A stretch of DNA of 55,261 bases from a virus, in the IMG/VR virus record IMGVR_UViG_3300009159_000087, positions 1-55,261 of that record. One strand, 5' to 3'. Of the stretch, positions 48,543-53,391 are shown one piece after another; position 1 is the first letter of the stretch, and each line of letters starts with the position of its first letter. The notes under the pieces are model-generated. The model made no database searches, was not told the origin of the DNA, and saw only the letters and a program-made list of their open reading frames with translations. The position numbers and the translations under genes were made by a program.

Positions 48543-48550
48543 TATTTATG
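48543..48550 (-). promoter_or_regulatory. Late promoter -10 element (CATAAATA) for the gp48 operon
   Basis: The minus strand reads CATAAATAGTATG in the 41-base divergent gap between gp48 and gp4, about 40 bases upstream of the gp48 ATG and correctly ahead of its AAAGGT site. It would drive the whole leftward baseplate run. Confidence 0.6.
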
Positions 48551-48982
48551 AAGCATAAAGGCAAGTTTACACCAATTAACCCACAAAAATACAAAGGTGA
48601 TCCAACTAATATCATCTACCGTTCATCGTGGGAAAAAAGAGTGATGTTGTGGTTAGATAAACACTCACAAGTAGTCTCTTGGTCGTCAGAAGAGGTTGTA
48701 GTTCCATACAAATCACCAGCTGATGGTCGTTTTCATAGATATTTTGTTGATTTCTATGCTCAAATACGAGGTAAAGATGGTAAATTAAATTCATATCTTT
48801 TAGAGATTAAACCTAAGAAACAGGCCACAGAACCAGAAATCAAATCAAGAATCACCAAACAATACATTAATGAAGTAGTTACTTATGCAATTAATCAAGC
48901 CAAATGGAAAGCCGCAACTGAATACTGTAAAGATAGAGGTTGGGAATTCAAGGTATTAACTGAAGACCATCTTAATTTTTGA
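48548..48982 (+). CDS. gp4: Head completion protein gp4 (PD-(D/E)XK nuclease fold)
   Basis: A 144-residue protein, matching T4 gp4 (150). It has the family order KGKFTPINPQKYKGDPTNIIYRSSWEKRVMLWLD, SSEEVVVPYKSPADGRFHRYFVDFY and YLLEIKPKKQ. Asp68 and Glu86-Ile-Lys88 form the PD-(D/E)XK-type active-site pattern that explains the name head completion nuclease. In T4, gp4 with gp50 finishes the filled head for tail joining. First gene of the rightward block, divergent from gp48. No Shine-Dalgarno is visible before the ATG. Confidence 0.93.
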   Translation: MKHKGKFTPINPQKYKGDPTNIIYRSSWEKRVMLWLDKHSQVVSWSSEEVVVPYKSPADGRFHRYFVDFYAQIRGKDGKLNSYLLEIKPKKQATEPEIKSRITKQYINEVVTYAINQAKWKAATEYCKDRGWEFKVLTEDHLNF

Positions 48983-50467: not shown

Positions 50468-50489
50468 ATGATTTGAAAAGGAGTTAATT

Positions 50490-51212
50490 ATGGCTTTGCC
50501 TAAAATTGATGCCCCAACCTATGAGGTCTTGTTGCCGGCATCAAACAAAAAAATAAAATTTAGACCATTTTTGGTCAAAGAACAAAAGATTCTTTTAATG
50601 GCTATGGAATCTGGTGAAAAAGAAGTTATTGAAAATAATATTCGCCAAGTATTACAAAACTGTTCATTAGATTCTTTAGATATTGAAAATTTACCATTGA
50701 TTGACATTGAATATTATTTCTTAAATTTAAGAGCAAGGTCAGTAGGTGAAGTAATAGAAACAAAATATAAATGTGAAAATGTTGTTAATGGAGAAACTTG
50801 TGGTCATATTAATGATGTTTCATTTAATATTTTAGATAGTAAAGTAAATTTTCCAGAAGAAAAAAATGATTTAATACCATTAACGGAAACAATTGGTATT
50901 AAAATGAAGTATCCAGATTTTTCTCTAATTAAAAAATTAGAAGAAGTTGAAACAATTACAGATATTGGATTTGAGTTGGTAATCGATTGTATTGATTATG
51001 TGTATGATGGTGATAACTTATATTATGCACACGAAACACCAAAAGATGAATTGATGACATTTTTAGAAACTTTGACAAAAGATCAATTTGATAAGTTAGA
51101 ATCTTTTATTGATAATATGCCTAAATTGGAAAAGAAAATTAATTTTATTTGCACTAAATGTGGATTTAACCATAACATCAATGTCCAAGGACTTGATGAT
51201 TTTTTTTCCTAA
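50490..51212 (+). CDS. gp26: gp26-like baseplate hub / tail assembly chaperone, G-like frame
   Basis: A 240-residue protein behind a strong AAGGAG site. It belongs to the T4 gp26/gp28-type baseplate family (KKIKFRPFLVKEQKILLMAMES, then DIEYYFLNLRARSVGEVIETKYKCE). Four cysteines, Cys95/Cys104 and Cys221/Cys224 (CTKCG), form a zinc-ribbon-like set. The frame ends GAT TTT TTT TCC TAA, so a -1 slip on T TTT TTT reads through into the gp51-like frame, giving a predicted 304-residue product (239 + 65). In T4, gp26 is a hub component. In other phages the G/GT chaperone pair is made this way directly before the tape measure gene, as here. Confidence 0.88.
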   Translation: MALPKIDAPTYEVLLPASNKKIKFRPFLVKEQKILLMAMESGEKEVIENNIRQVLQNCSLDSLDIENLPLIDIEYYFLNLRARSVGEVIETKYKCENVVNGETCGHINDVSFNILDSKVNFPEEKNDLIPLTETIGIKMKYPDFSLIKKLEEVETITDIGFELVIDCIDYVYDGDNLYYAHETPKDELMTFLETLTKDQFDKLESFIDNMPKLEKKINFICTKCGFNHNINVQGLDDFFS

Positions 51213-51244
51213 CCTTTCGTCATGATAATTTGGGAAATTATTAT
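51200..51244 (+). promoter_or_regulatory. Candidate programmed -1 ribosomal frameshift site with downstream stem
   Basis: Bases 51200-51206 read T TTT TTT in the gp26 frame, a canonical X XXY YYZ heptamer, followed by TCC TAA. A hairpin follows at 51222-51244: ATAATTT, loop GGG, AAATTAT, extended by three more pairs including one G-T. The spacer of about 15 bases is longer than usual and the stem is AT-rich, so its stimulatory role is uncertain. Confidence 0.6.
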
Positions 51245-51403
51245 CGGACTAATTTCTCTTTGATGCAACATCATAAGTATAACCTAGCGGAACTTGAGAA
51301 TATGATTCCGTGGGAAAGAGACATTTATGTTTCAATGTTAATTCAATACATTGAAGCTGAAAATGAAAAGATTAAACAACAGAACGCTGAAAGAAAAAGG
51401 TAA
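51206..51403 (+). CDS. gp51: gp51-like domain, probably expressed by -1 frameshift from gp26
   Basis: The frame open from 51200 to the stop at 51401-51403 encodes 65 residues after the slip: FLTFRHDNLGNYYRTNFSLM, then QHHKYNLAELENMIPWERDIY and a charged helix. This resembles the T4 gp51 hub-assembly catalyst of cyanophage-type phages, and the HH...PWE..IY pattern is typical of the T part of GT chaperones. The first ATG (51263-51265, 46 residues) has no ribosome site and would drop the FRHDNLGNYYRTNF part. The upstream bases are coding-like to the slip point. Its stop overlaps the next ATG by one base. Confidence 0.7.
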   Translation, partial: FLTFRHDNLGNYYRTNFSLMQHHKYNLAELENMIPWERDIYVSMLIQYIEAENEKIKQQNAERKR

Positions 51404-53391
51404 TGATAACAAAGAACGTTGGTAGAATCACCTATGCTTGGAGCCCAAATGCCTTAAATGGTAAGGGCTGGTGGTTTGAGCTAGGTAAAGATGGCAATTT
51501 AGGTCTCGCTGCTACTAAAGCTCTTGGTGCTAAATTGGGTAAACCAAAATCGACTGAACTACCTCCTACAAATGTATCTAAAAACAAATATTATTTTACA
51601 CCATCCAAATCTGGAAAACCAACAAGAAGAAGATATAGAACTTCAACATCTGCATATGGTGGTGGTGGAGATGATGAAGCTTCAAAATATGAAATTGCTG
51701 ATGTAACATCGAGTAAAGGTTTAGGGTATCTTGCATCAGAAAAAATGATGTCTGGTAAAGGTTTAGGATCTTCTATTAAAGAAGCCTTTAAAGATAAAAT
51801 AGCCGCTAAAGCTACAAATTTCAAAAAGAAATTTGATCCTATGAATATGTTATCGAAAATTTCACCATTGGCCGCAACTGCTTATGGTAAAAAATTTGGT
51901 CGTAAAAATGCCGACATATCATATTTTACTGGTGTTCGTCCTACAGCTGATCCTTCGGATATGGAAAAACCATATACTGAATCGGTATCTAATAGAAGTG
52001 ATCGATCAGAGAAAACACAAACAGCCAAAAAAGTTTCAAGTAAAGGCGAAACAATCAAAGGCGGTGCTGGTACATTAAAACAAATTTATAAATTAATATC
52101 TGATAAATTTGAAGAAGATACTAAATTACGTGAAATTAATAAAAGTTTTGAAGAAGAAAAAAAATCTGAAGATGAACGAAGACACAAAGAACTTATCAAT
52201 GCCATTTTAAAAGGCAAGGGTCCAAAAGGTAAAGAAAAAGAAGAGAAAAAATCTGGCCTTTTTGATATGCTTGGTGGTTTATTCAGTATGATGAAAGGTT
52301 TACCTGGAATGTTAATGGGTGGACTATCATCTATGTTAGGACTAAAGGCACTTGGTAATATTGGTTCTAAAATGGTTGGTGGTGTTGTCTCTGCTGGTAA
52401 AAGTATTGTAAAAGGTGGCGCAAAACTTGCAGGTAAAGCAGGATCATTTATCAAAGGCGGTGTTAAATCTGCTATGGGTTTTGGTGGTAAAGCAATTAAA
52501 TCTATAAGTTCAGTAGCATCAAGTGCTGGTGGAGCTGTTAAATCTGGACTTGGTGCAGTTAAAGCCGGAACGGCAAGTAAAGTAGCTGAAGCTGCTGAAA
52601 AAACAGGATCAGCATTAGCTAAAGGTGGAAAGATGGCAACAAAAGTTGCAAGTGGTGCTTCTAAATTATTAAAAGGTGGTGGTAAACTATTAGGATTTTT
52701 AAAATCAATTCCAGGATTAAGTTTGATTACTGCTGGTGCTGACCTTGTAATGAGAATTAAAGAAGTAAATGAAAAAAAAGAAGCAGGTGAAATATCAGAT
52801 GCTGATTATAAAAAAGAAATTACAAAATCAATTGGTTCGGCCGCAGCTGCAGGTTTATTACCTGTATTAGGTGGTGCAATCGGCTCAGTAGTTCCAGGTG
52901 TTGGTACAGTTATTGGGGGTCTTGGTGGTGCAGCCGCTGCTTTGTTAGGTGGTGATAAAATTGGTGGATGGTTAGCAGGAAAAATGTATGACTTTTTTGT
53001 CGAAGATAAAAAAGGTTCTGCATCAGAAGTTAAAAAAGATACAGCCTCTCCTGTTCCATCAGCAACACCATCAGTAAGTTCTACAGGATCACCAGGAGTT
53101 TCACCAACAGGATCATCATCTTCTAGTCCATCAAATTCACCTTCTGCAAGTCCATCTGGTGGTGCACAAACACCATCGACAGCAAGAGTGAATGCAGCCG
53201 TTTCTGAAAATCAAAGTTTGGTTGGTCCTTCTGCTACTATGAGTCAAGGTTCACCTACAATCAATAAATCAACTACTAATATTATGGGCGGTGGAGGCGG
53301 CGGTGGAGGTGGTAGTAATGGTGGCACAAGTATAAGAAATGAAGAACCTATACTGATGAGAGTTCAATACGGAAAAGTAAGACCGGTATAA
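51403..53391 (+). CDS. Probable tail tape measure / hub protein (gp29-like position)
   Basis: A 662-residue protein whose ATG overlaps the gp51 stop by one base. N-terminus MITKNVGRITYAWSPNALNGKGWWFELG, then Lys/Ser-rich helices, a charged helical region (SDKFEEDTKLREINKSFEEEKKSEDERRHKEL, about 231-262), a Gly/Ala/Lys helical stretch with hydrophobic segments (about 290-530: GLFDMLGGLFSMMKGLPGML, AAAAGLLPVLGGAIGSVVPGVG), and a Ser/Pro/Thr- and Gly-rich C-terminus. Hydrophobic, membrane-insertion-like segments and position right after a chaperone pair suit a tape measure. At about 1.5 angstrom per residue it would give a tail near T4 length. I do not recognise T4 gp29 sequence directly, so this is inference. 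Confidence 0.6.
   Translation: MITKNVGRITYAWSPNALNGKGWWFELGKDGNLGLAATKALGAKLGKPKSTELPPTNVSKNKYYFTPSKSGKPTRRRYRTSTSAYGGGGDDEASKYEIADVTSSKGLGYLASEKMMSGKGLGSSIKEAFKDKIAAKATNFKKKFDPMNMLSKISPLAATAYGKKFGRKNADISYFTGVRPTADPSDMEKPYTESVSNRSDRSEKTQTAKKVSSKGETIKGGAGTLKQIYKLISDKFEEDTKLREINKSFEEEKKSEDERRHKELINAILKGKGPKGKEKEEKKSGLFDMLGGLFSMMKGLPGMLMGGLSSMLGLKALGNIGSKMVGGVVSAGKSIVKGGAKLAGKAGSFIKGGVKSAMGFGGKAIKSISSVASSAGGAVKSGLGAVKAGTASKVAEAAEKTGSALAKGGKMATKVASGASKLLKGGGKLLGFLKSIPGLSLITAGADLVMRIKEVNEKKEAGEISDADYKKEITKSIGSAAAAGLLPVLGGAIGSVVPGVGTVIGGLGGAAAALLGGDKIGGWLAGKMYDFFVEDKKGSASEVKKDTASPVPSATPSVSSTGSPGVSPTGSSSSSPSNSPSASPSGGAQTPSTARVNAAVSENQSLVGPSATMSQGSPTINKSTTNIMGGGGGGGGGSNGGTSIRNEEPILMRVQYGKVRPV

Follow-up and report, generated by a model that had tools for sequence, protein, structure and literature searches.

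We propose that gp26 and the gp51-like frame behind it in the window (the whole 55,261-nt stretch of DNA analysed here, from an uncultured T4-like phage) are a single -1 frameshifted gene for a tail assembly chaperone of the G/GT type (TAC-N/TAC-NC), a reading to which sequence comparison leads us to give a probability of roughly 0.93. This G/GT-type interpretation, already put forward in the original prediction, is supported by the register of the slip site, its conservation, the coding constraint on the -1 frame, the gene order and the contrast with T4 and RB69. Most ribosomes would halt at 51210 and release a short form of 240 residues, the TAC-N, comparable to lambda gpG, and a minority, carrying two Phe-tRNAs on TTT TTT at 51201–51206, would move back one base onto 51200–51205, resume at TTC 51206 and end at 51401, giving a 304-residue TAC-NC that resembles lambda gpGT and bears a helical C-domain. 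Judging from lambda, the N-domain would serve as a coat for the tape measure protein, the product of the next gene, and the scarce long copies would use their C-domain to bring in tail tube subunits. We infer the slippage, its rate and the chaperone role from sequence, and the features concerned are collected in Table 1.

Table 1. Positions of the chaperone gene, its slip site, candidate signals and the following gene in the window.
Feature	Position	Strand	Remarks
gp26 / TAC-N (G-like) ORF	50490–51212	+	240 aa; PF12322, phrog_150
AAGGA, weak Shine-Dalgarno-like	51187–51191	+	8 nt before heptamer
Slippery heptamer T TTT TTT	51200–51206	+	within T8 at 51200–51207; kept in relatives
-1 extension, TAC-C (T-like; annotated gp51 in cyanophages)	51206–51403	+	65 aa post-slip; phrog_634
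gp26 zero-frame stop TAA	51210–51212	+	3' limit of the shift interval
Ten-pair stem of the original prediction	51219–51249	+	can form; not conserved
Alternative nine-pair stem GGGAAATTA/TAATTTCTC	51232–51258	+	90% of cells paired in nearest relatives
First -1-frame ATG	51263–51265	+	thought to be no start: lacks a ribosome site, is embedded in conserved coding sequence
Probable tape measure gene	51403–53391	+	662 aa; by position and size; phrog tape measure match weak, E=3.5e-5

The gp26 ORF is preceded by a good ribosome site (GGAG, 50480–50483) and its 3' end reads GAT TTT TTT TCC TAA, such that the single codon TCC separates the heptamer from the stop. Because the -1 frame is blocked by a TGA ending at 51199 and the zero frame stops at 51210, a -1 shift is confined to 51200–51209, and this permitted interval is filled by the heptamer; from the TGA onward the -1 frame is open to the TAA at 51401–51403. 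Re-reading of the sequence bore out the earlier claims that the T TTT TTT sits in the zero-frame slippery register and that the -1 frame is open from 51200 to 51401, and the predicted 240-residue protein and 304-residue fusion agree with the 50490–51212 ORF and with a sum of 239 + 65 aa.

To place this junction among its relatives, we fetched homologs by gp26 protein similarity alone, with the state of the junction playing no part in the selection, and added a few isolated phages from annotated records; single-protein queries with Cr30, KVP40-like and RHph_I9 proteins gave one or two loci each. Alignment of the junction across T4-like phages, the check that the original prediction had proposed for a conserved heptamer, revealed T TTT TTN in register at the end of gp26 in 174 of 194 distinct junctions (TTTTTTC in 153, TTTTTTT in 16, TTTTTTA in 3 and TTTTTTG in 2), with the heptamer standing exactly one codon ahead of the stop in 169 of the 174. 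In every heptamer junction the codon preceding TTT TTN ends in T, and elsewhere in these gp26 genes Phe is written TTT in 69% of cases, and 80% of comparable codons are NNT. The chance of NNT TTT being chosen every time is about 4e-6 over 21 clusters at 60% identity, a figure that is drawn from heptamer-bearing junctions only and so bears on register and the choice among synonymous codons rather than on whether every relative has the motif, and whose clusters are not fully independent. Outside the junction, only 2 of the 4744 remaining codon positions in these genes carry an in-register T TTT TTN.

Both parts of the proposed product belong to recognizable families. The zero-frame product matches PF12322 'T4_baseplate' (E=1.2e-58) and, among phrogs, phrog_150 (baseplate hub), and the -1 frame peptide matches phrog_634, 'baseplate hub assembly catalyst' (E=2.9e-29). 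The -1 peptide aligns with the C-terminal end of phrog_150 as well (E=1.6e-6), and therefore fused members exist within phrog_150, which covers both gp26 and the -1 extension. We modelled the two as separate parts rather than as the fused protein: the AlphaFold model of gp26 (pLDDT 90.5) had as its top match among 350,542 PDB chains the HK97 tail assembly chaperone 2OB9, a weak and non-significant match (E 0.59, probability 0.35–0.41) that leaves the predicted likeness of fold suggestive only, and the C-domain was modelled as helices (pLDDT 80.8).

The alternative that survives best, albeit as quite an unlikely one, is that gp51 is a separate small protein with its own start, with translation either re-initiating once the gp26 stop is passed or beginning at an internal ATG (51263) or TTG (51230). 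Many cyanophage records do annotate gp51 separately, and in KVP40-like phages, Cr30, RHph_I9 and phiM7 the -1 ATG overlaps the gp26 stop, an arrangement that would permit coupled re-initiation. In the window, however, the first -1 ATG lies 51 nt beyond the stop and encodes the Met within the conserved motif TNFSLMQHHKYS, and the sequence upstream of it (CTAATTTCTCTTTG) has no Shine-Dalgarno. The earlier observation that this ATG has no ribosome site and follows coding-like sequence was therefore upheld, and the proposed search for conserved -1 codons between heptamer and ATG found constraint: codons 3–18 after the slip gave a pooled pairwise omega of 0.18, against 1.09–1.35 in the other two frames, which shows purifying selection on -1 codons ahead of the first ATG. 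Of 169 relatives, moreover, 38 lack the usual -1 ATG, and 12 of these show no ATG in the -1 frame anywhere within the first 22 codons. A separate start also leaves the in-register heptamer unexplained, and the heptamer persists even in the phages whose -1 ATG overlaps the gp26 stop.

Those last phages (L085, L086, L087, L091) carry the overlap as TAATG or TGATG with the slip heptamer present, and a free C-domain could be made there by re-initiation. As a separate observation, synonymous divergence among the window's relatives is lower near the slip site (pS 0.61 at -1 codons 3–18 versus 0.80–0.82 at codons 21–50), as if an RNA element overlapped the coding sequence.

Beyond the heptamer junctions, 18 of the 194 belong to a divergent, Ackermannviridae-type set (Kuttervirus, Taipeivirus, Cygsa01, Vibrio D506 and metagenomic relatives) in which a shorter NTT TTN is followed by one codon and the stop, with the -1 frame open. 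The sites read ATT TTC, CTT TTC, GTT TTT or GTT TTA and thus hold four or five T's, and the sole -1 peptide tested from this set (BSP101) matches phrog_634 (0.0027). Such junctions (loci L088, L095–L107, L110; L089, L090, L108, L111, L112) would need a single-tRNA slip on U_UUN, and in E. coli U_UU[U,C] motifs belong to the tetramers that shift most readily (PMC4066793). The gp51-like -1 frame of Ackermannviridae-type records is partly unannotated, for example in Menlow (L095).

These counts bear on two further alternatives. RNA polymerase slippage on the T run, by which mRNA with one extra U would yield the fusion through ordinary translation, strikes us as very improbable: the eight T's of the window would allow it, and UUUUUUU-like runs may cause transcriptional slippage (PMC4066793), but the predominant TTTTTTC sites (153/174) have six T's only, which argues that codon register and not run length is kept, and the 18 junctions with still fewer T's share the same frame layout. 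A homopolymer error of assembly or sequencing, hiding what is truly one in-frame gene or a broken gene, is nearly refuted, since, error-prone as homopolymers are and although the window is a metagenome contig, 192 of the 194 distinct junctions, isolated phages and TTTTTTC sites included, have the frame break at the identical position.

The remaining two junctions are those of T4 and RB69, which read TTC TTT GAG TTA CTA TAA and have no -1 continuation. T4 gp51 (249 aa) carries PF12322 at residues 1–201 and a C-domain of the window's type at 200–244, and the 'gp51' of the window corresponds only to the last ~45–65 residues of it. From these matches, gene 26 of T4 and RB69 is the short form and gene 51 the long form, separately encoded, and the 304-residue fusion proposed here has a natural in-frame counterpart in T4 gp51, whose two parts meet at the window's slip point. 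The window shares with the T4 gp26/gp51 family the PF12322 N-domain, and its C-domain is a homologue of the last part of T4 gp51; the window differs in having one PF12322 copy only in the 55-kb record, possibly a fragment, in place of separate short and long genes. The original prediction that the T4 26/51 pair is the G/GT chaperone of this lineage thus stands as to family identity and fails as to mechanism in T4 itself, which has a separate long gene and no frameshifting. A short gene beside a separate long fusion gene is also described for certain T4-like phages (PMC10885494). For the production of tail chaperones in T4-like phages, T4 is accordingly the exception and not the model.

Gene order places the chaperone locus between the tail tube gene and the probable tape measure gene, the family match of the latter being weak. 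Upstream stand gp4-like and gp2-like genes and a gp19-like tube protein gene (PF06841, 1.6e-7; phrog_45, 2.7e-45), and on the downstream side the ATG of the tape measure gene overlaps the -1 frame stop (TAATG). The gp4-like head closure protein (48548–48982) matches a TnsA-like endonuclease N-terminal domain (PF08722, 1.5e-22).

Vladimirov, Gautam and Davidson (2022, Virology 566:9–15) reportedly identified the tail assembly chaperone genes of T4-like phages, and are said to have found that several T4-like groups use frameshifting, T4's own group having 26 and 51 as separate genes. These TAC-N/TAC-NC genes have the PF12322 family and the two-part layout in common with the window. Lambda slips at G GGA AAG, as opposed to the T TTT TTT of the window, and its gpG is smaller than the 240-aa short form. 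As proposed for the window, lambda gpG/gpGT pairs a short chaperone with a rare -1 extension and acts with the tape measure protein (PMC5009743), and a 2016 account presents frameshifting of the lambda type as a conserved trait of long-tailed phages 'except T4' (PMC5009743). According to PMC10885494 and PMC12846349, which cite that work, the idea of a frameshifted chaperone in T4-like phages was already published in 2022 (Vladimirov et al.), and the latter source gives poly-T -1 slip signals as known for TAC-N genes of these phages (PMC12846349). Chaperones of the Adele type (Vandenendeviridae) and of Andersonviridae have an alignment-predicted poly-T GTTTTT -1 slip at the TAC-N end (PMC12846349); these are other phage families, with a shorter site nearer to the Ackermannviridae-type NTT TTN than to that of the window.

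Taking the junctions together, we see an even chance that the slip-and-stop layout (T TTT TTN or NTT TTN, usually with one codon between slip site and stop) is old and near-universal in PF12322 chaperones, that its stimulators (an upstream Shine-Dalgarno-like GGAGGG, downstream hairpins) are clade-specific, and that T4/RB69 duplicated the gene and then lost the slip site. The frameshifted-gene reading corrects many cyanophage annotations, in which a 'baseplate hub subunit' and a 'hub assembly catalyst' are listed as two proteins. New here are the testing of the idea across many relatives and a group of candidate stimulatory elements.

Regarding those elements, the stem of about ten pairs that the original prediction placed after the heptamer can form, but the rest of that suggestion did not hold: against dinucleotide shuffles it showed no excess stability (z -0.23; z +0.30 for a 101-nt stretch), and in the nearest relatives it is broken, with 70% of cells paired, equal to shuffles. 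The slip site and the alternative nine-pair stem are ~25 nt apart, and the stem is in part a by-product of the encoded GNYYxTNFS motif. Compared with synonymous recodings, the downstream fold was moderately more stable than expected in the window (MFE z -2.09), only slightly so in the wider clade (mean -0.55) and distinctly so in the S-PM2-type set (mean -2.58), which has a strong 11-pair hairpin (94% paired, one compensatory pair). Upstream, the AAGGA of the window was no better than synonymous recodings (z -0.31) and was dropped as a Shine-Dalgarno stimulator there; in many relatives a Shine-Dalgarno-like GGAGGG precedes the heptamer by ~10 nt (mean z -1.1 to -1.7). We treat the hairpins and Shine-Dalgarno-like elements as leads to possible stimulators, not as results. 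The S-PM2-type hairpin (L181–L200, L203, L094) lies ~11–43 nt past the heptamer, and other strong hairpins, of different sequence, occur at L125, L142, L149, L226, L234, L237 and L255.
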